A DNA stretch of 60,385 bases from an uncultured Clostridia bacterium (GTDB taxonomy: Bacteria > Bacillota > Clostridia > Lachnospirales > Lachnospiraceae). The notes under the pieces were generated by a model that worked only from the letters and a program-made list of their open reading frames with translations, was not told the origin of the DNA and searched no databases. Made by a program: the position numbers and the translations under genes. Location: contig CAMIZL010000012.1 of assembly GCA_946403295.1 (NCBI GenBank), positions 1 through 60,385 of the forward strand. The letters are read 5' to 3'. Shown in pieces: positions 42,680 to 59,929 of the stretch. How positions within the stretch are numbered: the first letter of the stretch is position 1; each line of letters opens with the position of its first letter.

Positions 42680-44431
42680 ATGAAAAAAGGCGTCGAATAC
42701 ACAGGTAAGGTTGAAACAACCGAGTTTCCGGGAACGGGAGTGCTTTTTTGTGAGGGCGAGAAAGTCAAGGTAAAGGGTACCCTCGAGGGTCAGACCGTCA
42801 GATTTGCGATGGGAAGAAAGCATTCGGATCACATAAGCGGAAGACTCCACGAGATAATCGAGCGTTCGCCGCTCGAGTCGAGAAAGCCTGTCTGTCCCCA
42901 CTTTGAGAGATGCGGAGGCTGTACTTATCAAAGACTTGAATACAAGGATGAGCTTGCGATAAAAAAAGCCCAGGTCAAGAAGCTTATCGACGCAGCGGTA
43001 GGGGAAGAGTACGATTTCACCGGGATCGACCAAAGCCCGCTTGAGTGGGGATACCGTAACAAAATGGAATTTACGTTCGGCGACTGCGCAAGGGGCGGAG
43101 AGCTTACACTCGGACTTCACAGACAGGGCAGTTTTTACGATATCGAGCAGATCACCGATTGCCATATCGTAAGTATGGATTATAACAGGATCATTGATAC
43201 CGTCGTTTCGACGTGCAGACAGTTCGGACTTACCTATATGCATAAACTGACTCACGAGGGATATCTTCGTCATCTCCTGATCAGACGTGCGGCAACGACG
43301 GGTGAGATCCTCGTGAACCTCGTTACGACATCGCAATGGAAGTGTGAACCGCTTCCGAAGGATTCCGGGATCGTCGGTGAGATACTTGCCCTTCCGATGT
43401 TTGAGGACGAAGACGACAGGCCTGTGTTCAGGGCGGGATGCCTTGACATTACGGAGAGAATGTTTCTTGAGGTTCTTGCAAAAAGGCTGCGTGAACTCAA
43501 TCTCGACGGAAGCATAGTCGGGATCAGCCGTGCGCTCAATGATGATCCCGCAGATGCGTTAAAGGCACAAAGCAAGCTCGATATTTTCGGAAAGGACTTC
43601 TTTTTTGAGGAGATCCTCGGACTCATATTCAAGATCACGGCATTTTCATTCTTTCAGACAAATTCGTTCGGTGCCGAGGTCCTCTACAGGATCGCGCGTG
43701 ACTTCCTCGGCGATGTGACCGGAAAGGTTGTGTACGACCTTTATTCGGGAACGGGAACGATCGCGCAGGTCATAGCGCCCGTGGCAAAAAAAGTGATCGG
43801 CGTCGAGATCGTTGAAGAGGCGGTAGCGTCGGCGCGAGAAAATGCCGAACTCAACGATCTGCAAAATTGTGAATTTATATGCGGAGATGTTCTTAAGGTC
43901 CTTGACACTATCAAGGAGGCGCCTGATGCGATCATCCTCGATCCTCCGCGCGAAGGCATCCATCCCAAGGCGCTCAAACAGATAATCTCGTACGGCGTGG
44001 ACAGGATAATCTATATCTCATGCAAGCCTACGAGCCTCGCGCACGATCTGCTTGATTTTGTGGAGGGCGGATATAAGGTCGTTAAGGTAAGGTGTTGCGA
44101 TATGTTCCCGCATACGGTGCACGTGGAGACGGTTTGCCTTTTGTCCCAACGCAAACCTGACACGACAATTGAAGTGGATCTGGATATCTCAGAGCTTGAA
44201 GTATCCAGTGCGGAAACCAAGGCAACCTATGAAGAAATCAAGTCCTACGTGTTGGAAAAATACGGGCTGAAGGTGTCGAACCTTTATATCGCCCAGGTCA
44301 AAAGAGAATGCGGAATTGTAGAGCGGATCAATTATAATCTGCCGAAGACAGAGGGGAACAGAGTTCCTCAGTGTCCGGAGGATAAGAGAAAAGCCATCAA
44401 GGATGCATTCGTACATTTTCAGATGATTTAA
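42680..44431 (+). CDS. rlmD: 23S rRNA m5U methyltransferase RlmD-like, with C-terminal tail
   Basis: A 583-residue protein. The N-terminal TRAM-like region is followed by iron-sulfur cysteines in CPHFERCGGCTYQ, then FQTNSFGAEVLY, motif I DLYSGTGTIAQ, DPPREGIH and the catalytic ISCKP. It methylates uridines in 23S rRNA (U1939/U747 type). Residues about 509-583 are an extra module (ETKATYEEIKSYVLEKYG to the final HFQMI) not part of the enzyme fold. I recall this tail from Clostridia, often near integrated elements, and mobile-type genes begin right after it. The specific position methylated is not certain. Confidence 0.9.
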   Translation: MKKGVEYTGKVETTEFPGTGVLFCEGEKVKVKGTLEGQTVRFAMGRKHSDHISGRLHEIIERSPLESRKPVCPHFERCGGCTYQRLEYKDELAIKKAQVKKLIDAAVGEEYDFTGIDQSPLEWGYRNKMEFTFGDCARGGELTLGLHRQGSFYDIEQITDCHIVSMDYNRIIDTVVSTCRQFGLTYMHKLTHEGYLRHLLIRRAATTGEILVNLVTTSQWKCEPLPKDSGIVGEILALPMFEDEDDRPVFRAGCLDITERMFLEVLAKRLRELNLDGSIVGISRALNDDPADALKAQSKLDIFGKDFFFEEILGLIFKITAFSFFQTNSFGAEVLYRIARDFLGDVTGKVVYDLYSGTGTIAQVIAPVAKKVIGVEIVEEAVASARENAELNDLQNCEFICGDVLKVLDTIKEAPDAIILDPPREGIHPKALKQIISYGVDRIIYISCKPTSLAHDLLDFVEGGYKVVKVRCCDMFPHTVHVETVCLLSQRKPDTTIEVDLDISELEVSSAETKATYEEIKSYVLEKYGLKVSNLYIAQVKRECGIVERINYNLPKTEGNRVPQCPEDKRKAIKDAFVHFQMI

Positions 44432-44879: not shown

Positions 44880-45203
44880 ATGACAAAGAAAAAAGATTAC
44901 AGATCGCTTAAGATCAGCAGCATTTGGAACTATGGCAGTAATCCGGCACCGCAGCTTCGACTTCAGGGGAAATGGCTGGAAGAGCTTGGATTTCAGATCG
45001 GAGCACCGGTGCTAGTGAAGTGTGAAGACGGAAGGCTCATCATTACACCGGACACCATGAGAGCGGAGACAGAGAGCAGGGAAAAAGAATTCCTTGATAA
45101 GGAGATGGCGCTGCTCCAGAAAAAGTTTGATGCAGAAAAGAAAAAGATCCGGCAGCAGATCGTGGCAGAGAGGGAGGCAATGTATGTAGCGGAAGGAAGG
45201 TGA
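44880..45203 (+). CDS. SymE family toxin-like protein
   Basis: A 107-residue protein. Residues about 8-62 match SymE (LKISSIWNYGSNPAPQLRLQGKWLEELGF, then VKCEDGRLIITPD), an AbrB-like fold; the rest is a charged coiled coil (EKEFLDKEMALLQKKFDAEKKKIRQQ). SymE toxins of type I modules degrade RNA or bind DNA and are held down by an antisense RNA. An antisense gene would lie over the 5' end; I cannot identify its promoter. GGAGGA precedes the ATG. Confidence 0.82.
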   Translation: MTKKKDYRSLKISSIWNYGSNPAPQLRLQGKWLEELGFQIGAPVLVKCEDGRLIITPDTMRAETESREKEFLDKEMALLQKKFDAEKKKIRQQIVAEREAMYVAEGR

Positions 45204-46811: not shown

Positions 46812-46897
46812 GGCTATGTACGCATATTTTGCTTCGCGAGCGTTTCCCTAACGCTGCTGCCATTATAGAAAATGGGGTATTTAGGTTTGGGGATAGA

Positions 46898-48088
46898 ATG
46901 GTTCACCGTGGTTCATCGTGGTTCAAATCTGAGGAAAGGAAGAATGCATTCGTGGAATTTAAGGACTTCTTCAACATGATGAAAAATCGAATATCTGATG
47001 GTGCAGATGTGCCTTATTTCTTTAGAGATCTGATGGCTATGATCACGGATGTTACTGAAGATGAGTGGGGGACGCCAAAGGATCCCTCCACAAAACTTAC
47101 CAAGGAAAACACTCTTCGTACTTATGCAAAGCGTGGCTTCTCTAAAAAGTTCGCGGAGAGTATTGTTTACAGGCTCTCTCCGGAGATGTTTGTGAAATCC
47201 CTGAACACGAGACCCAAGGCGGTGATTGCGCTTCTGGCAGATGATTATAAAAGCTATGACTCATCAACGAATGCAACCAACGTGTCAAAGAAACTGGCGG
47301 ATTGTTTTGTCGATATTATTCGCACGGCAGCAGGGTTGGTGCCGCAGAGTGAATTTGAAAGACAGAGGTTGATGCAGCAGGCATATGATCTGAAGATGCG
47401 GTTTGGAGAGTACTTGCGAGATGAGGCAGATAATGTGTGTACATTTCCTGGATGTGGAAGGCTGCTGTCTGTGGCAGAGAATGGAGTGGTTTCCTACCTG
47501 TTCGAGGTTGGGCTTATAGACAAGAGCAAGGAAGCTAAAGTTGATAATCTACTGGCTTTTTGTCCGTATTGTCATGCCACCTATCTCTTTGACAGCAATA
47601 AGAAACGCTGCAAAGAGCTGGCTGGCATTAAGAAGATTCTTGTGGCTCATAAGCAGAGCATGAGGCTATTAGACGGGATGCCATTAGAAAAAGAAATAAT
47701 TGGCGTGATCACAAAGATAAAGAATCTTAAAGAAAAGGATTTGCTTGATCCGTCTCTGGATCCGAAAGATATCAAGGAAAAACTGATTCCGGACGATAAC
47801 CTTGCTTTGTATAAAACAGTCAAGGGGTACGTGGATACATATTATGTAACACTTAAAGAGATCATAGAGAGCGCTGATAAGCGCGGAGAGATTGACTACG
47901 ATGAAGTCCAGGATCAAATGAAAGCTATTTATAAAAGACTTAAGAAAGCAAACAAGTCCAATGTAGAGATATTCAATGAGATATCTGAGAAGGTACATAA
48001 AGTCAGCCTGCAGGAGGACATATACTGTCAAATAGTAGTTGCGTATTTTATTGCAAAGTGCGAGGTGTTTGATGCAGTTTCCGAATAA
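46898..48088 (+). CDS. ABC three-component (ABC-3C) system protein with HNH-like zinc motif
   Basis: A 396-residue protein. Helical N-terminal part, then cysteine-rich CTFPGCGR (near 181) and FCPYCHATY (C222, C225, H226), the layout of an HNH-type treble clef, though the usual central DH pair is not obvious. The C-terminal half is helical. Followed by a small middle component and a DUF2326 ATPase, it fits the effector/C-terminal-domain protein of an ABC-3C conflict system. The frame is open to a TTG at 46829, but that is too close to the promoter; ATG 46898 or GTG near 46952 are better starts. Confidence 0.78.
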   Translation: MVHRGSSWFKSEERKNAFVEFKDFFNMMKNRISDGADVPYFFRDLMAMITDVTEDEWGTPKDPSTKLTKENTLRTYAKRGFSKKFAESIVYRLSPEMFVKSLNTRPKAVIALLADDYKSYDSSTNATNVSKKLADCFVDIIRTAAGLVPQSEFERQRLMQQAYDLKMRFGEYLRDEADNVCTFPGCGRLLSVAENGVVSYLFEVGLIDKSKEAKVDNLLAFCPYCHATYLFDSNKKRCKELAGIKKILVAHKQSMRLLDGMPLEKEIIGVITKIKNLKEKDLLDPSLDPKDIKEKLIPDDNLALYKTVKGYVDTYYVTLKEIIESADKRGEIDYDEVQDQMKAIYKRLKKANKSNVEIFNEISEKVHKVSLQEDIYCQIVVAYFIAKCEVFDAVSE

Positions 48089-48296
48089 ACTTTACTCATA
48101 TAAAAACAGCACACTATCCCTAATTCCGGTTGTTCTTGATGAGATCAAACAGACTCCAGTTCCTGTTGGAGAATTGTATAACCGGGTAAAGCCATCATTA
48201 AAAGATGCTACGGACTTTATATCTGTGATGGATTGTCTGTATGCATTAAGGGCGGCGGACATAAATGACGATGGGGAGGTGTTCATATGCTTATAG
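48072..48296 (+). CDS. ABC-3C middle component
   Basis: A 74-residue protein (NSTLSLIPVVLDEIKQTPVPVGELYNRVKPSLKDATDFISVMDCLYALRAADINDDGEVFI), a compact winged-helix-like fold typical of the middle component. It overlaps the upstream gene by 17 bp and the ATPase gene by 10 bp. GAGGTG precedes the ATG at 48072. Confidence 0.82.
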   Translation: MQFPNKLYSYKNSTLSLIPVVLDEIKQTPVPVGELYNRVKPSLKDATDFISVMDCLYALRAADINDDGEVFICL

Positions 48297-49948
48297 AAAT
48301 GAAATCACCAGCCTTTAAAAAGCAGGGAAAAGAGAGACCGGCGATCCAATTCAAAGAGGGACTTAATGTCGTATTGGGCAAGGAAGATGGAGCTATGTCT
48401 ATCGGCAAATCTTCCTCATTGCTTGCTATAGATTTTGTCTTTGGTGGTGATACCTATATCAAGAGTGACGGAGTGCAGAAAGAAGGGCATCACACGATAT
48501 TCTTCACATTTCTCTTTGATGGGGTAAAGTATTTCTTCGCAAGGAATACCGGAGATAGTAATACTATCTTCATTTGTGATGAGAACTATGAACTTACAGG
48601 GAATCAGTACACAAAAGAAGAATTCACAACCTGGCTGAAGAAACAGTATCACATGGATTTCGCAGGCCTGTCGTTTCGTATTGCACTGAGTAGTTTTTTC
48701 AGGGTTTATGGAAAGAAAAATACGGATGAATTGAATCCTCTACAGGGAATTCCCGGGCAGAATATGGATAAATCCATTACTTCAATTCTGACTCTGTTTG
48801 ATAAATACAAAGATATTGAAGAGTTTAAAACCAATGTAACTGAACATAAGAAAAAGCTGGATGCATATAAAGAAGCAAGACGATATCATTTCATTTCTGA
48901 TCTTGTTGGCGGACAGAAGAAATATGAAGAGAACCTTGCTGTTATTCGAGATTTGGAACTGCAGCTTGCAACGCTTATGGAAGAGGCTGAAAAGGGACAT
49001 TCGGAAGAAGAGATAGAGCTCAATAAGAAAAAAGCAGCCCTTACAACCCAGAAATTGAATTATGAAAAAGCAATCCATGCGAAGGAAATGAAGCTTAGGC
49101 TTGTGAATATGAGCCTTGATTATGGACTCTATCCTACGGAAGCTGATATCTCCGCATTGCAGGAGTATTTCCCTGATGTAAATGTGCGCAAGCTGTATGA
49201 GGTGGAAAAATATCATCAAAAGCTGGCAAAAATACTGGATGCGCAGTTTGCGGATGAGAAAAAGGCTATAGAAGAAGATATAGCAAGTCTTAAAAAACAA
49301 TTGGATGGAATTAATGCTCAGATACGAGAACTTGGATTTGTTGGTAATATCTCCAGAGAGTTCCTGGACAGACATTCAGAGCTCAAAGGTGAGATCGATG
49401 CGTTAAAAACACAAAACGAAGCATTCCTAACACAGAATGAATTACAGGCGGCTAAAGCAAATGCGGATGCTGTGCTAAAACGGAGCATCGAGGATATTCT
49501 TCGAGAAATTGAGGAAACATTGAATGCGAAGATGGAGGAATTCAATGACACGCTCTTTGACACAAAAAAGAAGCCGCCGCATGTTCACTTTAATGCATAC
49601 AACAGCTATAAGTTTGAGACCCCAGACAATACCGGAACAGGATCAAATTATAAAGGAATGATCGTTTATGATCTTGCAATGCTGTTTTCTACGGCGTTAC
49701 CGGCATTGGCACACGATTCCTTGTTGTTTAAAAACCTGGGCAAGGATGTCGAAGATGGGATTATGAGGATATATGCAAGCACCAAAAAGCAGATTTTCAT
49801 TGCTTATGATAAACAGGGAGATTGCAGACCAGAAACGCAAAAGATTCTTGAAAGTAATTGTGTATTGAGACTGTCAACTAATAATTGTGAGCTTTATGGA
49901 AGGTCATGGGACACGGAAGAGGTAAAGAAAGATGAAGATGAGTTATAA
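48287..49948 (+). CDS. DUF2326 SMC-like ATPase of the ABC-3C system
   Basis: A 553-residue SMC/Rad50-like protein. The N-terminal ATPase half has a Walker A variant GKEDGAMSIGKSSSLLAIDF (31-50), about 190-430 is a coiled coil, and the C-terminal lobe (about 455-540) completes the ABC head. DUF2326 proteins are the ATPase of ABC-3C systems and probably sense invading DNA or its replication. Start behind GAGGTG; coupled to the middle component. Confidence 0.85.
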   Translation: MLIEMKSPAFKKQGKERPAIQFKEGLNVVLGKEDGAMSIGKSSSLLAIDFVFGGDTYIKSDGVQKEGHHTIFFTFLFDGVKYFFARNTGDSNTIFICDENYELTGNQYTKEEFTTWLKKQYHMDFAGLSFRIALSSFFRVYGKKNTDELNPLQGIPGQNMDKSITSILTLFDKYKDIEEFKTNVTEHKKKLDAYKEARRYHFISDLVGGQKKYEENLAVIRDLELQLATLMEEAEKGHSEEEIELNKKKAALTTQKLNYEKAIHAKEMKLRLVNMSLDYGLYPTEADISALQEYFPDVNVRKLYEVEKYHQKLAKILDAQFADEKKAIEEDIASLKKQLDGINAQIRELGFVGNISREFLDRHSELKGEIDALKTQNEAFLTQNELQAAKANADAVLKRSIEDILREIEETLNAKMEEFNDTLFDTKKKPPHVHFNAYNSYKFETPDNTGTGSNYKGMIVYDLAMLFSTALPALAHDSLLFKNLGKDVEDGIMRIYASTKKQIFIAYDKQGDCRPETQKILESNCVLRLSTNNCELYGRSWDTEEVKKDEDEL

Positions 49949-50180
49949 CAAGCTTTGGAAGCTACTGATTGATAAGCAGATGAAAAAGTCTGATCTTCGG
50001 AAAAATGCCGGCATCAGCTCTTCTTCGCTGGCCAAACTTACAAAGGATGAAAATGTTACAACAGAGGTTCTGGCTAAAATATGTCGAGAGCTTAAATGTG
50101 ATGTGGCTGATATTATGGAATTTGTTCCGGATGAGATTACGGAAAAGACAAGCAATCAGGAGTCCCATTTATCGGACTAG
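49932..50180 (+). CDS. Small XRE-family HTH regulator
   Basis: An 82-residue protein that is almost entirely a Cro/C1 HTH (MSYNKLWKLLIDKQMKKSDLRKNAGISSSSLAKLTKDENVTTEVLAKICRELKCDVADIM). It overlaps the ATPase gene by 17 bp and sits just before the methyltransferases, like controller proteins of restriction-modification systems. An 18-bp palindrome at 50237-50254 may be its operator. Confidence 0.88.
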   Translation: MKMSYNKLWKLLIDKQMKKSDLRKNAGISSSSLAKLTKDENVTTEVLAKICRELKCDVADIMEFVPDEITEKTSNQESHLSD

Positions 50181-50254: not shown

Positions 50255-50277
50255 GATTACTTAATGTGGAGGATTAT

Positions 50278-51396
50278 ATGGAACAGATGACACTCGCTGA
50301 ATTAGGTTTAGTGAAACCTGATACTGATTCTAAAGTCGAGGAAAAAGAAAGCACTATTGATAATAGTCAGAGGATTAGCGGTTCAAAAACTATGCAAATT
50401 TTGGGGCTTTCAAGGCATACATTTGATAAGGCTGTAAAAGGCGGTTTTCTTGTTCAGCACGTAGATGGAAAGAAAAAATACTATATTCTCTCTGAAATTG
50501 AGGCATTCATGACCACAGAAGAATATAAACAGATGTCTGAGGGATCTGTAGATAAACGAAATACATTAAATGATTTGACAGGAAAGGATTGGTTACCGGA
50601 AACAAAAAGTTTCTTTTATCAAAAAGGCCTTGGTGCTGACAGCCCAGAAGCTCAAATTGAAAAACTGCATCCTGCACCATATTCATTTCAAGATATAGGG
50701 CATCTGATTCGCTTTTTTACAAAGAAGGGGATGCGAGTTCTTGATCCGTTTGGCGGCGTTGGATCAACTGCTAAGGCATGTGAGGTTGATGGAAGAGTTT
50801 GCACCAGCATAGAACTTTCTTCCAAATGGCATGAATTATCTATAAAAAGGTTAGAAACTGAAGTTGGTGAAGGGACTAGCAAAAACCATATCTTCATTAA
50901 TGGTGATTCATGTGAAGAGTTGTTAAAACTTGATGATAATTCTGTTGATTTTGTCGTTACCAGTCCGCCTTATTGGGGAATACTGGGGAAAATAGATCAG
51001 AAGGTCAGCAAGAACAGGGTGGCAAATAACTTGGAAACAAAGTATTCAGAAGATGATAAGGACCTTGGCAATGTAGATAATTACGAAGATTTCTTGGATA
51101 TACTGGTAAATAAAGTATTTATGCAGTGTGCTCGATTATTAAGACCAGGGAAATATATGGCTCTGGTTGTGTCAGACTTTAGGGATAAGTCGGACTTTAT
51201 AAGCTTCCATAGTGATTTAGTTCAAAAAATGAATAAATCTCGCATCCCTGGAGGAGGAATCCTGAACTTACAAGGAATAAAGATACTGTTGCAAAATCAT
51301 AAGAGTTTACTTCCTTATGGATATCCATTCGCGTATGTTGAGAATATACATCATCAATATATTCTCATTTTTAAGAAAGAGGCTAAAAAGAAATGA
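50278..51396 (+). CDS. DNA methyltransferase with N-terminal HTH (TSPPYW type)
   Basis: A 372-residue protein. Residues about 26-75 form an excisionase/MerR-like helix-turn-helix (SGSKTMQILGLSRHTFDKAVKGGFLV). The catalytic part has SAM motif I DPFGGVGST near 156-164 before motif IV TSPPYW near 228-233. That order and the SPPY form suggest an N4-cytosine or N6-adenine enzyme of the class with motif I first. GGAGG fixes the ATG at 50278. It overlaps the second methyltransferase by 4 bp. The extra HTH could serve target binding or autoregulation. Confidence 0.88.
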   Translation: MEQMTLAELGLVKPDTDSKVEEKESTIDNSQRISGSKTMQILGLSRHTFDKAVKGGFLVQHVDGKKKYYILSEIEAFMTTEEYKQMSEGSVDKRNTLNDLTGKDWLPETKSFFYQKGLGADSPEAQIEKLHPAPYSFQDIGHLIRFFTKKGMRVLDPFGGVGSTAKACEVDGRVCTSIELSSKWHELSIKRLETEVGEGTSKNHIFINGDSCEELLKLDDNSVDFVVTSPPYWGILGKIDQKVSKNRVANNLETKYSEDDKDLGNVDNYEDFLDILVNKVFMQCARLLRPGKYMALVVSDFRDKSDFISFHSDLVQKMNKSRIPGGGILNLQGIKILLQNHKSLLPYGYPFAYVENIHHQYILIFKKEAKKK

Positions 51397-52229
51397 ATCA
51401 ATTTGAAGGCATTATTTGTGGGGATATGGACATAGTATTAGATGATCTCATCCGGCAGGGAGAAAAATATGATCTGATCTTGACTGATCCTCCCTACAAT
51501 ATCAATAAAGACTTTGGAAACGATAGTGACAAATTATCAATAGAGGATTTTGTTGAAAAATCCTCTGAAAGAATTAGAAAACTGAAAGAAGTCCTTACCC
51601 CAACGGGAAGCATTATTTGGTTTGGAATACACGATTATATTTGTTATATACAGATCGCCATGTATAATGCGGGACTATATTATCGCAGATTGAATATTTG
51701 GCATTATGAGAATGGCTTTTCTAGATCTCAGAAAGAACCTGCCACACATTATGAACCATTTCTTTGGTTTTCCAATCATCCGAAAAAATGGACATATAAT
51801 GTCGATGAGGTAAGAGTCCCATATAAAAGCACGGAACGGCTTAAATCACCTGTCAAGTATAAGGGGAAAGACGGAAGTACAAAAATATGGCAACCTAATC
51901 CCAAAGGATCAATGAGAGGAGATGTATGGGATTTCCCTACATTAGCAGGTAAAAGATTTGAAAAAGAAAAGACAGAACACCCAACACAGAAACCGGAGTC
52001 TTTAATAACTGAGCTTATAAAAGCTTTTTGCCCTATGCAAGATGGTATTTTTAATGGACGAATATTAGATCCATTTCACGGATCTGGAACACTTGGTGTG
52101 TGCTGCGAAAAACTAAATGCCGCTGGTAATAAAATCACATGGACTGGTATAGAACTTGAACAAAGATGGTGTGATATTGCTAATGCGAGGTTAGAAGCAC
52201 TGAAGGATACAAGAGGTGACGATGAATGA
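51393..52229 (+). CDS. Second DNA methyltransferase (beta class, DPPY)
   Basis: A 278-residue enzyme with motif IV DPPYN at 32-36 and the SAM site DPFHGSGT near 226, the reverse order to the first methyltransferase (beta class). Likely N6-adenine specific. Two different methyltransferases beside one endonuclease usually mean an asymmetric recognition sequence, each enzyme protecting one strand. Overlaps both neighbours by 4 bp. Confidence 0.92.
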   Translation: MNQFEGIICGDMDIVLDDLIRQGEKYDLILTDPPYNINKDFGNDSDKLSIEDFVEKSSERIRKLKEVLTPTGSIIWFGIHDYICYIQIAMYNAGLYYRRLNIWHYENGFSRSQKEPATHYEPFLWFSNHPKKWTYNVDEVRVPYKSTERLKSPVKYKGKDGSTKIWQPNPKGSMRGDVWDFPTLAGKRFEKEKTEHPTQKPESLITELIKAFCPMQDGIFNGRILDPFHGSGTLGVCCEKLNAAGNKITWTGIELEQRWCDIANARLEALKDTRGDDE

Positions 52230-53923
52230 TTAGATTTCGTAATCCAGGAACACAATATACAACTCAGATTCAAGTATTTCGAGAATTATATAATGAATAT
52301 AAGGATGCACCAAGTTTTAGTCTTGACGATATGGCTGAGACCATAGCAAGGACAAAACTTATGACGGCTTATGGTTATGCTGGCGATGCGGCATTGGCAT
52401 TAAGCAATACAGATAATGATAGTTTGAATTCAACTAAGATGAACGCAAAGATGTATGCCGAGGTATTTCGGTTGTTGGGATGGATTACCTCGGCTGGAAG
52501 TGGCTCATATCCTCTTGTCTTTACCTATATCGGAGAACATGCGGCCTGTACGGATGAAGTTCTGCCTTTATATGAGCAGTGTGTACTGGGAATCAATAAT
52601 CCTCAGAGGATAATGGATGTCAAGTATGACGAGAAGGTTAGATTCTTTAAAGCGGCATTATTTTCGCTGGAGGATCTAGGGGGAATAATGTACAAACATG
52701 AATTATGTTTGGGACCAATGTCCATTGATGATCTAGATAGATCACAGTATGCCAGAATGATTACATACTTACAGAAACTGCGAGGGTCTTATAAGCGTTA
52801 TGAGGAAGCTTACAAGGGTTTATGCGAAGATCTGGATGTAAAACCCACACTTCCAGACAATTCCACTAGGTTGCCCATTGCTTTTATGAAAACCTGTAAT
52901 TGGATAGATAGTAAACGAACAAAAGATCTGTATCCGCCAAAATCCTTGGAGTGTATTTGTCTTACTGACCACGGGCGCGAAGTTGCGAAGAGCTTGCACA
53001 ATGTGAAAGATTTACGATTAGATGAATATGTTACATACTCTGAAGCTAAGCAAAGGGCACTAATCAGATTAGGGGTTTATTCCATGCTCTTTAGAGCGGG
53101 ATACAACACTGATCCAGTAAAAGAGACAATACAGAATGATACTAATGAATGCAAAGATATACTGGCGGGAAAGCCTCTGCTGTTTTCTCCATATCAAACA
53201 CTTCATCATGATGAGGTTGATGATGCGTTAAATCTGAAACGGAACCACGGATCGTACCACAGGAATAGAACAATTCTTCCTAACGTATCGAGGCCCGATC
53301 TCGTTATTAATGATTTGAATCTTTCTGTAACAGTAGAAACTGTATCAAGAAATGAAGATGCTGAAGTTGAAAGATTTACATCTTATGTGAATAAATTAAA
53401 ACTAGCTGGGAAGAAGAAAAGAGAAATAATAGATAGAGTTTTTGAAGAATGCATAACGGACACACAGACTCGTTTCTATCCTTTTGTTGCAACACTATTC
53501 AGAGTAATGGGTCTTGATTGCACTGCATCAAGACCAGGCGATAATGGAGCAAGATGGGATGCAATTATAGTAGATGACGAGGAAAGCATTCCAATTGAAA
53601 TAAAGTCGCCAACAGAAGAACAGCATCTGTCGCTTAAAGCAATAAGACAGGCTCTCGAAAATAAAGTAATTTTGCTTTCAAGGGAGACACATCCAACAAA
53701 GCCAGAAACTACTTCTTTGGCCGTAGGATACTATCTGCCAAATGATAGAGCGGAAGTGACAAATTTAATGATAGATTTTAAGAACACATATGGATACAGC
53801 ATAGGTGTCATAGACTTAAAAACGCTACTGACTATAGCTATTACAATTTTATTGGACGGTAAAACGATAGATATACAGAAGCTTAATAGATTGGAGGGTT
53901 TTGCAAATGCCACTTTTAAGTAA
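52226..53923 (+). CDS. Type II restriction endonuclease, PD-(D/E)XK fold
   Basis: A 565-residue protein with no membrane span. The first about 380 residues are a presumed DNA-recognition part. The C-terminal domain has C432, S435-R436-P-G-D439, R443, D445-A and E458-I-K460, a D-x12-E-x-K active site. Its place directly after two methyltransferases supports restriction. Family and cleavage site are not identified; with two methyltransferases a type IIS or two-subunit enzyme is likely. It overlaps the next gene by 17 bp. Confidence 0.85.
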   Translation: MIRFRNPGTQYTTQIQVFRELYNEYKDAPSFSLDDMAETIARTKLMTAYGYAGDAALALSNTDNDSLNSTKMNAKMYAEVFRLLGWITSAGSGSYPLVFTYIGEHAACTDEVLPLYEQCVLGINNPQRIMDVKYDEKVRFFKAALFSLEDLGGIMYKHELCLGPMSIDDLDRSQYARMITYLQKLRGSYKRYEEAYKGLCEDLDVKPTLPDNSTRLPIAFMKTCNWIDSKRTKDLYPPKSLECICLTDHGREVAKSLHNVKDLRLDEYVTYSEAKQRALIRLGVYSMLFRAGYNTDPVKETIQNDTNECKDILAGKPLLFSPYQTLHHDEVDDALNLKRNHGSYHRNRTILPNVSRPDLVINDLNLSVTVETVSRNEDAEVERFTSYVNKLKLAGKKKREIIDRVFEECITDTQTRFYPFVATLFRVMGLDCTASRPGDNGARWDAIIVDDEESIPIEIKSPTEEQHLSLKAIRQALENKVILLSRETHPTKPETTSLAVGYYLPNDRAEVTNLMIDFKNTYGYSIGVIDLKTLLTIAITILLDGKTIDIQKLNRLEGFANATFK

Positions 53924-54965
53924 AGAAGAGAAGAGAAATAGTATTGCATTACCCAAAATAAACCAGATTGATAGTGTTACTCAGCGTTATGGGGAAACCG
54001 CAATTATTAGGGGAAAAGGAAGAAGCATATCTGGCGCCTGTTTAAAGTGTAAGAATCCAAGGTGCATGAGATTTCCAGAGGCCTATATTTCATGCCCGGA
54101 ATTTGAGGATTTCTCATATGAAAGGAATAATAATGTTTGTCCAGTAGATGCAATTTCTTGGGACTATTCAAAAGACATTCCTAGGATTGATCATGAAAAA
54201 TGTATTAACTGCGGCATATGTGCTTTAATGTGCCCAATTGGCGCGATTTACTCTGACGGAAACAAGGTTTATGTTTCCGAACCTCGTAATGATTATAGTA
54301 TTCTGCCTGTTACTGCAAGCAATATTAGACTTCAAGAAGAATTGTTCACAAGGTTGATGACTTTGAATTGGCAACACCGTTTTCTACATGAGTCTCAATC
54401 TATCATGTCCAATATTTACAAAAAGGTTTCAAAATTTGATGGACGTTCTATGTCAGCGAATCTTTTGATTAGAAATCTTATGATTGCTGTAGGGCACCAT
54501 TGTTCAATCAGCAGAACAGGTGATGTATATACACGTATAGATGCTGTGTATTCTGATGGCGATATCTATGATGCCTGCTACGGGGCTATGGAAATAGAAT
54601 TTGGAAGAGACACATTGGATGCGTCAAGAGGGATTCTAGATGATATTGCAGTTCTTCATTCACGGAACGGTATAGATAAAGAAAAGAATACAGCTCTTGT
54701 GGCATGCCTATCGTTTCCGAATAAGAGGCAGGGCTATTTTCAAGTTATAAAGGATGTTAATAAGGTCTTGAATCTAAAGATTCAAACAGTCTCATTAGGG
54801 GCGTTGTTAATACTAGCATGGAATGGTATCGAGGTTGATTTTTCGCAAAAGGATTTTTATGCGGATTTTGACAATCTTAGTATACGTTCAGCTCTGAACA
54901 ACAACATAAAGCGTAGAGTTGAATTGCCAGAAGGCTTTTTGGGTATTTTGGAACCTGAAAAATAA
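53907..54965 (+). CDS. Ferredoxin-like iron-sulfur module fused to restriction-nuclease-like domain
   Basis: A 352-residue protein. Residues 40-125 have nine cysteines: C45, C48, C53, C63 and C78-P, then the classical C99-x2-C102-x2-C105-x3-C109-P with an IGAI turn, so one and probably two [4Fe-4S] clusters. The C-terminal domain (about 180-340) aligns with the nuclease domain of the upstream endonuclease: C199-x2-S202-R203-x-G-D206-x3-R210-x-D212-A, then E229-I-E231 in place of E-I-K, and a similar tail. The catalytic lysine is missing. I infer a second subunit of the restriction enzyme. GGAGGG sets the ATG at 53907; a TTG at 53901 is the alternative. Confidence 0.82.
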   Translation: MPLLSKEEKRNSIALPKINQIDSVTQRYGETAIIRGKGRSISGACLKCKNPRCMRFPEAYISCPEFEDFSYERNNNVCPVDAISWDYSKDIPRIDHEKCINCGICALMCPIGAIYSDGNKVYVSEPRNDYSILPVTASNIRLQEELFTRLMTLNWQHRFLHESQSIMSNIYKKVSKFDGRSMSANLLIRNLMIAVGHHCSISRTGDVYTRIDAVYSDGDIYDACYGAMEIEFGRDTLDASRGILDDIAVLHSRNGIDKEKNTALVACLSFPNKRQGYFQVIKDVNKVLNLKIQTVSLGALLILAWNGIEVDFSQKDFYADFDNLSIRSALNNNIKRRVELPEGFLGILEPEK

Positions 54966-54986: not shown

Positions 54987-55451
54987 ATGGGAATTTCATT
55001 CAGGCATTCAGCCGGTTTCGGAAAAAGAATGGAATACAACTTAGTCGGAAAAATGCTCATGGAAGGCTTAGATGTATATCTTCCATTGGTAGATGATCAT
55101 GGAGTTGATTGCGTTATCAAGAAAGAGGATGGAACCTTTATAGAAGTTCAGATTAAAGCGAGATCAAACGAAGTTACCGATGGCGACGCTGCACTGTTTT
55201 CAGCAATCACTCATGATTTGACAAAGAACTTCTACTTTGTGTTCTATTCTGAGCGCCTGGAGATGATGTGGATCCTTTCGTCAGAGGAATTTTTGAAGGA
55301 ATGTGTGACCAATAAAACAGGAAAGAATGCTGGAAAGCGTAGTATTTGGTTTAACGGCAATAGGAAAGATAAGAAGACAGGTATCAAGAAAGAGTATTGC
55401 AAGAAGCAGTTCGAGAAATATATTGCAACAGACTTTTCAAGATTCCATTAA
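54987..55451 (+). CDS. Small PD-(D/E)XK nuclease-like protein
   Basis: A 154-residue protein with G-V-D41-C-V-I, then F-I-E53-V-Q55-I-K57, the core of Holliday-junction-resolvase-like PD-(D/E)XK folds (D-x11-E-x-Q-x-K). A lysine-rich segment follows (about 115-140). It may nick DNA or protect it; no domain tells which. It starts 21 bp after the iron-sulfur gene. Confidence 0.8.
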   Translation: MGISFRHSAGFGKRMEYNLVGKMLMEGLDVYLPLVDDHGVDCVIKKEDGTFIEVQIKARSNEVTDGDAALFSAITHDLTKNFYFVFYSERLEMMWILSSEEFLKECVTNKTGKNAGKRSIWFNGNRKDKKTGIKKEYCKKQFEKYIATDFSRFH

Positions 55452-56118: not shown

Positions 56119-58221
56119 ATGGACGAAACGAATTTGAGGCAAGTGCTGAAAGAATGCAATAAGTCTGCAAAGACTGGATACAAGATCGCTTCAGCACAGG
56201 AGAAAAATTTGAATAGAGCTCTGGCTTCAGCACAGGAAAAAGTCCAGAGCACTATTATAGATTTCAATAGTTCTCCGTGTTACGCACCGGAGGCGACTGA
56301 ACTATTAGAGGTACAGCTGGTAGAAATCAGAGATGCATTTAATAAGCTCTCGTTTGCATTCAAGGAAGACTTACAGAATCTGCGAGAGAATTTGTCACAA
56401 TTTTCGATTACACTCTTTGGGCGGACAATGGCAGGAAAGTCTACACTGATGGAAATTCTGACTGAGGGGGACGGATCCTCAATTGGAAAGGGATCGCAAC
56501 GCACAACCAGGGATGTTCGGAAGTACACGTGGAATGGTCTGGAAATAACAGACGTACCAGGCATAGGAGCCTTTGAAGGAGAAGATGACGAACAGATTGC
56601 TTTTGAAGCAGCCAAGACTGCGGATCTGATTTTGTTTTTGATTACAGATGACGCTCCGCAGGTAGCAGAAGCAGAATGCTTCAGTAGAATAGTGAACCTT
56701 GGAAAACCCATCATTTGTATTATGAATGTCAAAGCCTCTATCGCGGAAGACAAGAGCTTGAAGTTGGCTCTTAGAGACGTGAATAAGCGCTTTGATATGG
56801 AACGGCTGGATAAAATCAGAAATCAATTTTTGCTGTTTTCGGAACAGTTTGGACAGACATGGAGTCATATTCCGTTTGTATATGTTCATCTTAAATCTGC
56901 ATATGCAGCATTGAAGGCTGAGGATCCGGAAAAAAGAAAAAGCTTTCACGAAGTTAGCAGGATTGATTACCTGAAAAGCCGGATCGTGGATCAGGTCAGA
57001 ACAAAAGGTGAGTTCTATAGAATTAAGACCTTCATCGATATTATTTCAAATCCGATTCTTGAATCGATGGAGAACCTTTTGGAACAAAGTCAGATAAATA
57101 GTGTCCAGGGACGAACCATCCTTGCTAAGAAGCGGCAGCTTGGGAGTTGGAAGGACGTTTTTTATCGAGACGGCAAGGCCCAGATTAAATCACTGATTGT
57201 AAAGATAAAGAGTGAGCTTAACGGGGAGATTGCTTCTTTTGCCGAAGATCACTTTGATGACAAGAATGCAGATAAGGCGTGGAATAAGCTGCTTAAATCA
57301 CGAAAAGTAGAAGTAAGATGTCAGGAGCTTCTTGAAGATCTTGAGGCTAAAAGCAACGATAAACTGAAGGAGATTTCCAGAGAGATTACGAATGAATTGA
57401 AGTTCGCTACATCCTTTGAAGGCGACAAATCTCTCCGGATGCATAAGATTATTGACGGGAAAAAGTTGTGGGATTGGTCTTCAATAGCTTTAGGCGGTGG
57501 ATTATCCATAGCAGCAGGTATTGCTTATCTGGTTGGCGCTGCAGCGGCAGGTCCTTTAGGATGGGCGGCGTTAGCTGTATCCGTTATAGGTGTCGGTGGA
57601 TCATTTTTATTCAAGAGCCGTGATAAAAAGGAATTTGAGGCTAGAACACGTCTTGAAAAGAAGCTTCGAGAAAATGTTTCACAGATATGTGATACTCTTG
57701 AAAAGCAGATGAACAAGAATCTGGATTCCTTGGTATCTGTCAGAATCGAAGGCCTGATGTCAGAGATGGACAAGATTAATTCCGTCATATTCCGTTTAGC
57801 TGATACACAGAAGGAACTGGCATGGGGGCTGAACAATCATATGCTTGAACTAAACAATCAGATTTTGACAGAAGCGATACGTCTTATCGGCGCTGAAGGA
57901 CTTCAGTATCACGTACAGTCTGTTGCAAGGATCCCCGGAAATACAAGTTTGATCCTGCTCAATGATGGGACGGTATTCCCTAAAGAGCAAAAGGATGGAC
58001 TGTATAAACTGATGGCAGAAAGAATAGGATTTGTTTATGATTCAGATAATAAGCGGGTTCTTATATCCAGAGTTTTGGGAAGAGAGATAGATAGGAACCG
58101 GATCAATATAGAAGAGAAAATCGGTGTAGCTCATATTCCTCTTGGTGACGCTACACCGAATATGAAAAACAGAGTCCGTCTGGCACAACAGTTTTCAAGA
58201 CTGTTAATAATGAATGAGTGA
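56119..58221 (+). CDS. Dynamin-like GTPase (first of a pair)
   Basis: A 700-residue GTPase. P-loop GRTMAGKST (101-109), switch I threonines in SQRTTRD, switch II DVPGIG near 145; the NKxD motif is degenerate (MNVKAS). Long helical regions flank two close membrane spans (about 455-496, glycine- and alanine-rich), the paddle typical of bacterial dynamin-like proteins. The tandem pair resembles LeoA/LeoBC (Eleos), a system with anti-phage activity. It could act on the membrane of infected cells. Confidence 0.85.
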   Translation: MDETNLRQVLKECNKSAKTGYKIASAQEKNLNRALASAQEKVQSTIIDFNSSPCYAPEATELLEVQLVEIRDAFNKLSFAFKEDLQNLRENLSQFSITLFGRTMAGKSTLMEILTEGDGSSIGKGSQRTTRDVRKYTWNGLEITDVPGIGAFEGEDDEQIAFEAAKTADLILFLITDDAPQVAEAECFSRIVNLGKPIICIMNVKASIAEDKSLKLALRDVNKRFDMERLDKIRNQFLLFSEQFGQTWSHIPFVYVHLKSAYAALKAEDPEKRKSFHEVSRIDYLKSRIVDQVRTKGEFYRIKTFIDIISNPILESMENLLEQSQINSVQGRTILAKKRQLGSWKDVFYRDGKAQIKSLIVKIKSELNGEIASFAEDHFDDKNADKAWNKLLKSRKVEVRCQELLEDLEAKSNDKLKEISREITNELKFATSFEGDKSLRMHKIIDGKKLWDWSSIALGGGLSIAAGIAYLVGAAAAGPLGWAALAVSVIGVGGSFLFKSRDKKEFEARTRLEKKLRENVSQICDTLEKQMNKNLDSLVSVRIEGLMSEMDKINSVIFRLADTQKELAWGLNNHMLELNNQILTEAIRLIGAEGLQYHVQSVARIPGNTSLILLNDGTVFPKEQKDGLYKLMAERIGFVYDSDNKRVLISRVLGREIDRNRINIEEKIGVAHIPLGDATPNMKNRVRLAQQFSRLLIMNE

Positions 58222-58231
58222 GGTGAAGGCT

Positions 58232-59929
58232 ATGTTTAAGATTGCTGGATTTGCTCAAAGAAGCATAGAGTTGAAAGAGAAGGCAAGGGCAGCCTTATTA
58301 TCTGCAGGATTAGATTTACAGATCCGAGATAATAAATCTGCTGCTATCAGGCTTGTGTTCGCTGGTCAATATAGCGCCGGTAAGTCATCTATTCTGAAGA
58401 TGCTTACAGGAAGAACCGATATTGCTATTGGTGCTGATATAACCACACAGCAAGCCCATACATATGATTGGAATGGTATTGAGGTGGTGGATACACCAGG
58501 TATACATACTCAGCTGAGACCAGATCATGATGAAATATCTTATGATGCGATAGCTTCAGCAGATATGTTGGTGTTCGTTGTTACCAATGAGCTTTTTGAT
58601 TCCTATATGGCTGCGCATTTCAGAAAACTGGCGATTGATAAAGATAAAGCTGGTGAAATGATTCTTGTTGTTAACAAGATGGACAGAACAGCAGAGGGGA
58701 ATACTGGAGAACAGCAGGATATTATACGAGAAGATTTGAAAAAAGTTCTGGAGCCATACACTCCAGAGCAACTTAATCTTTCATTCCTGGATGCCGAATC
58801 CTACCTTGAAAGTGTTGAAGAAAGAGCTGAGGATCCTGAGCTAGCTGATGAGCTTGCTGCACGTAGTGGTTATGCTCAGTTTATTGAAACACTGAACCGC
58901 TTTGTTGAAGAAAAGAGTATACCGTCAAAACTTACCACAGAGTTGTATGTTATAGATGATCGGTTGGAAAAGGCAATTAAAGATTTGCAACCAAAATCAT
59001 CTGATGCGGACATCGATGCTCTTGAAGAGAACTTCATGCAGCAAAGGCACTTGCTCATTGAGGCGAGAGGACGCATGCAGCAGGAAGTGAAGGATATATA
59101 CACCACGGCTGCATCTCAGATTCGTGATATAGGACTTGATGCTGCGAATCTTCTGGTAGAGGGCTGTAAGCAGGATGAAGTCGAGGATGAACTTCAGAAG
59201 TCAATTAGAAAAGCTGAGGATATCATTGAAAAGTGCCAGTCGGATGCCATTGAGGTAATCGATTCACGTTTGAATGAGATGGGGCAGCAGCTTGAAGTAA
59301 TTGAAAATTCTGAGTTCTCACGGGAACTAAAATCAAGACTCTCTGGAAAATTTGAAGGACTTCCTGAGGGAATACAGAAAATAATCGCAAATGCCGGTCC
59401 GGGTTTCCAGAAGGCAGGACAGGCTGTGTTAAATAATGCTTATAAAGCTGGAACTCAAGGTGGCTTAAAACTCACCAACTTCTCTGGAAGCACAATTCAT
59501 CAAATGGTTCTGAAAGTTGGGCATGGGATCGGCTTTAAGTTTAAGCCGTGGCAGGCAATTAAGATAACAAAGGGAATTGCCATTGGAGGCCAGGTGCTTA
59601 GTGCGTTAGGTGTTGGTTTCTCTGTATTCATACAGATAAAAGCTGATCAGGATGAGGAAAGAATCAGAGAGGATTTAAAGAATAATCGTCAGAATATCCG
59701 TAGCCAGTTTAATGTGGCAGCAAATGAACTGGAAGATTACGCAAGACAGTATATTAAAGATAATGTGAATCGTCCTTTAGAGACATCCATCGCGACGATA
59801 GATGGCAACATTCAGGAAATCAGAGATACACGATCAAACAGAAGCGCTGCGTGTCGTCAGCTTGAAGATCTCCAGAAAGAATGCAGATTGCTTATTCAGG
59901 ATATTCATTCTGAAAACGAAGCAGTATAA
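58232..59929 (+). CDS. Dynamin-like GTPase (second of a pair)
   Basis: A 565-residue GTPase with intact motifs: P-loop GQYSAGKSS (45-53), ITTQQ, switch II DTPGIH near 87 and NKMD near 148. A long coiled coil (about 250-380) and a hydrophobic segment near 449-470 (IAIGGQVLSALGVGFSVFIQI) follow. Start ATG 58232 behind GAGGTGAAGG, 11 bp after its partner; the ATG at 58214 overlaps that gene. Together they may form a heteromeric membrane-remodelling GTPase. A terminator follows. Confidence 0.85.
   Translation: MFKIAGFAQRSIELKEKARAALLSAGLDLQIRDNKSAAIRLVFAGQYSAGKSSILKMLTGRTDIAIGADITTQQAHTYDWNGIEVVDTPGIHTQLRPDHDEISYDAIASADMLVFVVTNELFDSYMAAHFRKLAIDKDKAGEMILVVNKMDRTAEGNTGEQQDIIREDLKKVLEPYTPEQLNLSFLDAESYLESVEERAEDPELADELAARSGYAQFIETLNRFVEEKSIPSKLTTELYVIDDRLEKAIKDLQPKSSDADIDALEENFMQQRHLLIEARGRMQQEVKDIYTTAASQIRDIGLDAANLLVEGCKQDEVEDELQKSIRKAEDIIEKCQSDAIEVIDSRLNEMGQQLEVIENSEFSRELKSRLSGKFEGLPEGIQKIIANAGPGFQKAGQAVLNNAYKAGTQGGLKLTNFSGSTIHQMVLKVGHGIGFKFKPWQAIKITKGIAIGGQVLSALGVGFSVFIQIKADQDEERIREDLKNNRQNIRSQFNVAANELEDYARQYIKDNVNRPLETSIATIDGNIQEIRDTRSNRSAACRQLEDLQKECRLLIQDIHSENEAV

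Follow-up and report, generated by a model that had tools for sequence, protein, structure and literature searches.

Does a type II restriction enzyme use iron–sulfur clusters to cut DNA? The 60,385-bp window analysed here, a contig of an uncultured Lachnospiraceae bacterium (CAMIZL010000012.1, forward strand), carries the genes C, M1, M2, R and S on its + strand, and these probably form a type II restriction–modification module with a BspD6I/BtsI-like (type IIT) heterodimeric endonuclease, whose cutting would depend on clusters in its small subunit, S. This reading draws on the gene content, the homology of the S and R nuclease domains, their predicted BspD6I/FokI-like folds, the conserved residues and the regular co-occurrence of the two genes, all of them read from sequence or prediction. 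An initial annotation of S had proposed a heterodimeric restriction enzyme with an iron–sulfur subunit. The proposal gains support, except that the heterodimer itself is a known design; the iron–sulfur subunit is what is new here.

Domain layout of S and its relation to R

The S gene (53907..54965, +) is open from its ATG at 53907 to the stop codon at 54963–54965 and encodes 352 amino acids, with an N-terminal two-cluster ferredoxin-like domain (about residues 40–125) and a C-terminal PD-(D/E)XK-fold nuclease domain (about 176–310). The structure prediction of S shows one well-defined two-domain body (predicted template modelling score, pTM, 0.91). The nine cysteines noted initially between C45 and C109 (codons at 54039..54233, +) are all present, at positions 45, 48, 53, 63, 78, 99, 102, 105 and 109. 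Eight of them are invariant in an alignment of 25 S homologues and are the probable cluster ligands, and C63 occurs in 17 of the 25 only. The pattern is C-x2-C-x4-C ... C-P ... C-x2-C-x2-C-x3-C-P, in which the short spacers are fixed and the two long ones vary by a few residues. Three further cysteines (199, 224 and 267) lie outside this region.

Eight ligands drawn from two C-x2-C-x2-C ... C-P motifs are what a two-cluster [4Fe-4S] ferredoxin has, the first motif (C-x2-C-x4-C) being a variant, and the N-terminus of S therefore looks like such a domain, which would be loaded with iron. Pfam matches Fer4 (32.6 bits, cut-off 21.1) and Fer4_7 (31.1 bits, cut-off 27) there, both above the gathering score. 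The best 25 of 83 NCBIfam families matched by S all fall on the ferredoxin part, and when whole S was compared with solved structures, the best 60 of 123 matches were ferredoxins. An assembly error as the origin of the fusion was ruled out: all 25 proteins aligned, that of the window among them, have the two parts fused in one open frame.

The nuclease domain of S (residues 176–310; 54432..54836, +) is homologous to the C-terminus of R (about residues 377–565; 53354..53920, +). The two share the motif read initially, C199-SISRTGDVYTRIDA in S and C432-TASRPGDNGARWDA in R, followed by E229-I-E231 in S in place of E458-I-K460 in R. BLASTP aligned the domains with 24% identity (35/146 amino acids, E=2e-6), the Smith–Waterman score was 76 against 29.7 ± 4.9 for shuffled sequences (maximum 60; 0 of 2000 reached 76), and hhalign paired the two domain families at 97.8% (E=1.1e-12). 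These three comparisons rule out chance similarity. Furthermore, a hidden Markov model of the nuclease domain built from 25 S proteins and run on 2170 open reading frames (ORFs) from 41 loci, some of them represented twice, matched only S and R genes at E≤0.01. The S domain had been taken for a copy of the R domain. The homology holds, and a recent copy does not: at 24% identity the two are old, diverged paralogues. Likewise, the cysteine that opens the motif is present in both proteins, and its conservation was not borne out, since C199 is found in just 14 of the 25 homologues.

Structure prediction gave both C-terminal domains a BspD6I/FokI-like fold, in line with the initial annotation. Among the matches listed, S fits the BspD6I small subunit (2p14), tied with FokI, and R fits Nt.BspD6I across both domains and the BpuJI recognition domain across residues 1–326. 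R (565 amino acids; 52226..53923, +) thus has a predicted N-terminal recognition region like that of Nt.BspD6I/BpuJI and a C-terminal PD-(D/E)XK site (D445, E458, K460). Sequence profiles of either nuclease domain found neither BspD6I nor any other solved restriction enzyme in the PDB at the limits used, and Pfam searched with the nuclease domain of the window's S returned 0 families at E≤0.1.

In the 25 S homologues, D212 and E229 are invariant and E231 is kept in 24, with glycine in the remaining locus (L071). In 27 R–S pairs (L061 and L071 excluded, four divergent viral-contig pairs included), the eight cysteines, D212, E229 and E231 of S and D445, E458 and K460 of R are all invariant. The near-invariance of the D-E-E residues argues for S being active, and BamHI is a precedent for D-E-E in place of D-E-K. 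Among S homologues the iron–sulfur part has a mean identity of 0.41 and the nuclease part one of 0.51. In L046/L047, the closest pair, nonsynonymous (dN) and synonymous (dS) divergence come to dN 0.066 and dS 0.39 for the iron–sulfur part and to dN 0.030 and dS 0.56 for the nuclease part; the four further pairs computed have a saturated dS of S.

Co-occurrence and distribution of the R–S pair

The end of R overlaps the start of S by 17 bp (53907..53923, +), and a GGAGG directly 5' of the S ATG lies within the 3' end of R. The frames overlap by 8–62 bp in all 28 loci with a usable start (29 were examined, and L055 was left out because its start was wrongly guessed), which makes translational coupling likely.

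A five-sequence S alignment was run against a species-genome collection in which 84,980 species have a single genome each, and it returned 28 loci, four of them on the same contigs as the earlier-found L042, L043, L044 and L039. The hosts include Clostridium thermopalmarium, Ruminiclostridium cellobioparum, Selenomonas felix, Lacrimispora, Lachnospiraceae, Oscillospiraceae, an Erysipelothrix, Thermosyntropha, Gastranaerophilales, Elusimicrobiaceae, an Actinobacteria metagenome-assembled genome and Niastella caeni, and Anaerolineaceae carries an S fragment only. Judged by record titles, the module spans five phyla (Bacillota, Actinobacteria, Elusimicrobia, Gastranaerophilales and Bacteroidota).

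The gene content of these 28 loci was read with S, R, M1 and M2 profiles. R stands directly 5' of S in 23 (in L061 the R start is off the contig), so that S homologues are found mainly beside R. R is split into two ORFs in one locus (L071) and another lies at a contig end (L072). The three others are broken: they have no R (a 40-residue remnant in L069), the N-terminus of S is gone, and M1 and M2 genes are present. These decayed modules with remaining methyltransferase genes are L067, L068 and L069; M1 is in two frames in L069, and only 0.9 kb upstream is visible in L068, where R could lie elsewhere.

Both M1 and M2 are found at 24 of the 28 loci, one partial copy at two more, and none is visible at two. 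The methyltransferase side precedes R–S at nine loci (L045 with part of M2 only), R–S precedes M1–M2 at 13 (L046 with part of M1 only; L068 without R), R–S faces M2–M1 at three (L067 without R), the methyltransferases diverge upstream at one, and the order is not visible at two. It follows from this varied order that the methyltransferases change place and that R and S keep together.

Searches that started from R led to the same pair. Besides the own genome, R as a single query found G702 among 61 relatives, and an R profile (A4) found G367, G434 and G399 among 391 class genomes and G935 among 398 phylum genomes; in a viral-contig collection the R profile found seven places. S is the next gene in 10 of these 12 places. 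In the two others the contig ends within R (G399) or 98 bp past the frame (L080, whose R is without its last part). The 10 places are about eight distinct loci, since L078/L079 score identically and L082/L083 nearly so, and G367 and G434 are in both the S-based and the R-based lists; as the loci behind the R profile had come from S searches, the two search routes are not fully independent. On the viral contigs the S profile found one locus and a single S query none. Seven loci with R against one with S indicate that the S patterns miss divergent copies adjoining R.

The pair is rare. In the class sample, 38 of the 391 genomes match S at E≤1e-6 and only three, the own included, do so across the nuclease domain; the other 35 match on the ferredoxin side and were not counted as homologues. 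R occurs in four genomes, own included, of a class sample that appears identical. An order sample has S in two of 295 genomes, own included. With tblastn, R found nothing in plasmid records and S nothing in phage records, and S matched one plasmid, by its ferredoxin part only. Phage genes lie near some modules, namely a lysozyme (L079), portal and terminase gpA (L082), and DNA_pol_A and DUF2800 (L042), and the module is apparently able to travel on prophages.

Known systems, proposed mechanism and rival readings

R had no PADLOC or NCBIfam match and no Pfam match above the cut-off (best AHJR-like, E=0.07), among 24 R proteins no family recurred in a second protein, and S had no PADLOC match. 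The closest known design is type IIT, whose asymmetric recognition sites are cut on one side. Site recognition and the cutting of one strand fall to the larger subunit, the smaller subunit cuts the other strand, and there are generally two methyltransferases (PMC4081073); BtsI (PMC2909958) and BspD6I, whose small subunit works only with an active large subunit (PMC6261011), are examples. The module likewise encodes two different nuclease polypeptides together, R and S, adjacent and with homologous nuclease domains; the predicted fold of R combines a recognition region with PD-(D/E)XK; and two methyltransferases (M1 and M2) are present. S is a candidate second catalytic subunit: its fold matches 2p14, with FokI tied, and it conserves D-E-E, with E-x-E instead of E-x-K.

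This gene set, together with the folds, suggests that R is the recognition subunit and first-strand cutter and S the second-strand cutter. R would read an asymmetric site through its N-terminal region and cut one strand with its D...E-x-K site; S would dock on R and cut the other strand with its D...E-x-E site; and M1 and M2 would protect host DNA, one strand each. The ferredoxin domain of S would have to be loaded for folding, docking or cutting, so that double-strand cleavage would need the clusters.

R and S resemble BspD6I/BstNBI (2ewf, 2p14) in fold, without a sequence match, and differ in that the small subunit there has 186 amino acids and is the catalytic domain alone, whereas S has 352 and a ferredoxin domain. 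BtsI and BsrDI, compared by description only, also have a large subunit that recognises and nicks and a small subunit inactive alone, alongside M1 and M2, the two methyltransferases of BtsI being as in the module here; the available parts of their descriptions mention no iron–sulfur domain (PMC2909958, PMC4081073). The type IIS enzymes are a different case: FokI and BpuJI act via one kind of subunit, and unlike them the module encodes a second, dedicated nuclease subunit.

Iron–sulfur sites are found in other nucleases of this superfamily. Cas4, Dna2/Bad and AddB combine the same fold with such a site in one chain, and AddB holds one cluster by four cysteines; in the Cas4/AddB/Dna2 arrangement one cysteine precedes and three follow the nuclease motifs. 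Four cysteines for one cluster are likewise described for the Cas4 and Dna2/Bad type (PMC4176176, PMC7430649). Unlike these, S has eight cysteines, a separate N-terminal ferredoxin domain, two clusters by prediction and a restriction–modification module around it, and a Cas4/AddB-type assignment was ruled out by the position of all eight conserved cysteines N-terminal to the nuclease domain. The ferredoxin-like subunits of the tungsten aldehyde oxidoreductases WOR5 and AOR transfer electrons for metabolic enzymes and have no nuclease. Among defence systems, one paper describes a ferredoxin-type region in the sulfur-transfer protein of a BREX type and some Ssp systems, not in a nuclease subunit.

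Could the clusters be more than a scaffold? There is close to an even chance that they are not, and that the heterodimer works as described with purely structural clusters that keep S bound to R or DNA and neither sense nor switch. The single well-defined body predicted for S is in line with such a role, and the clusters of Cas4 and AddB are held to be structural or required for DNA binding. Niastella, an aerobic genus, carries S, and anaerobes are therefore not the only hosts of the protein. On the other hand, eight ligands kept in all 25 homologues are seemingly more than structure needs, and the BspD6I small subunit is without such a domain. A redox, oxygen or iron gate is possible, with somewhat lower odds: intact (reduced) clusters would let R–S make double-strand breaks, and with lost or oxidised clusters R would only nick, which host ligase could repair. 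No redox partner gene was seen in the module, and carriage by Niastella and by phage-like contigs also speaks against a gate. Marginally more doubtful is the proposal of R as a constitutive site-specific nickase, with the state of the iron–sulfur clusters in S determining if its nicks turn into lethal double-strand breaks.

Three observations weigh against the main reading. The fold search of S cannot tell the BspD6I small subunit from FokI, S of L071 is without the second glutamate, and R and S are not always lost together: R is shortened in L083 and split in L071, with S open in each. It is unlikely that S is a regulator or specificity factor, with a degenerate nuclease fold and an iron–sulfur sensor, and that R cuts both strands as a FokI-like transient homodimer, since D212, E229 and E231 are conserved as for a metal site in use, and two methyltransferases fit two different catalytic sites, going by the accessible part of the type II review (PMC4081073). 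A chance neighbourhood, with S serving as a ferredoxin of metabolism or a nuclease of repair, seems highly improbable. Many metabolic relatives of its iron–sulfur part alone would suit this, yet across phyla R and S are regularly adjacent and overlap in frame, with the methyltransferase genes rearranged around them, and they have a nuclease domain in common. An unrelated ferredoxin was ruled out by the adjacency to R.

Two of the loci just named deserve description. In L083 (1–2554) all that is left of R is the nuclease domain, preceded by a transposase-like ORF recognised by eye, and S, M2 and M1 are open. L071 (8302–9956, Niastella caeni) divides R over two ORFs and carries E-I-G in S instead of E-I-E; the locus may be broken, or it may be a variant in two pieces.

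The initial annotation knew of no described example, and we likewise found no iron–sulfur subunit of a type II restriction enzyme in the literature searched, outside which subscription papers mostly fall and where absence is not proof; the available text of the type II review (PMC4081073) has no words starting with 'iron' or 'Fe-S'. If the type IIT heterodimer with an iron–sulfur subunit is real, its cofactor would add a class to enzymes that are textbook metal-ion nucleases, and possibly a new control of restriction. Aerobic purification could have missed such enzymes. If cutting is gated, phage restriction would be coupled to the redox or iron status of the cell, and an enzyme that turned from nicks to double-strand cuts in response to a redox cue would be a useful tool.

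Methyltransferases, controller and surrounding defence genes

M1 (376 amino acids; 50266..51396, +) and M2 (278 amino acids; 51393..52229, +) are DNA methyltransferases matching N6_N4_Mtase, with motif I before TSPPYW in M1 and DPPYN followed by motif I in M2. The N-terminus of M1 weakly matches HTH_17 (E=0.09, below the cut-off). The recognition site could not be predicted from the methyltransferase matches of M1 and M2. Directly 5' of M1 lies C (49932..50180, +), an 82-amino-acid Cro/C1-type helix-turn-helix protein (Pfam HTH_26, 1e-21) that is similar to the C proteins known from type II systems and is possibly the controller of the module. Among 38 loci searched, C homologues occur at five of 34 distinct loci, the window included; they adjoin R or M1 in L051 (=L042), L054 and L064 and lie 2 kb upstream of M1 in L057. 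Different small HTH_3 proteins stand upstream of R in L050, L077 and L082.

The module sits in a defence island that begins near 44.9 kb, extends to the end of the contig and comprises a Lamassu-like cassette, the restriction module and a Leo pair. The ABC-three-component/Lamassu-like cassette (46829–49948) has three ORFs, the middle one small; its first protein is CTD11 with an LmuA-like part (Pfam 9.9e-34, PADLOC LmuA 2.3e-7), and its ATPase is DUF2326/LmuB-like (6.7e-13; 8e-9). Directly after S, at 54987–55451, comes a 154-amino-acid protein with weak PDDEXK_5/DUF4365 matches (6e-4 and 0.0045, below the cut-off), and shortly after the module, at 56119–59929, a dynamin-like pair (PADLOC LeoBC 2.6e-99, LeoA 6.7e-121). 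The island starts with a SymE-like toxin gene (44880–45203; Pfam 6.9e-15), beside which lies a uracil-5 methyltransferase gene (42680–44431; Pfam tRNA_U5-meth_tr). The same kind of tRNA_U5-meth_tr gene flanks the module in Clostridium thermopalmarium (L042, 12360–13724), and it is possibly an insertion spot shared by the window and that locus.
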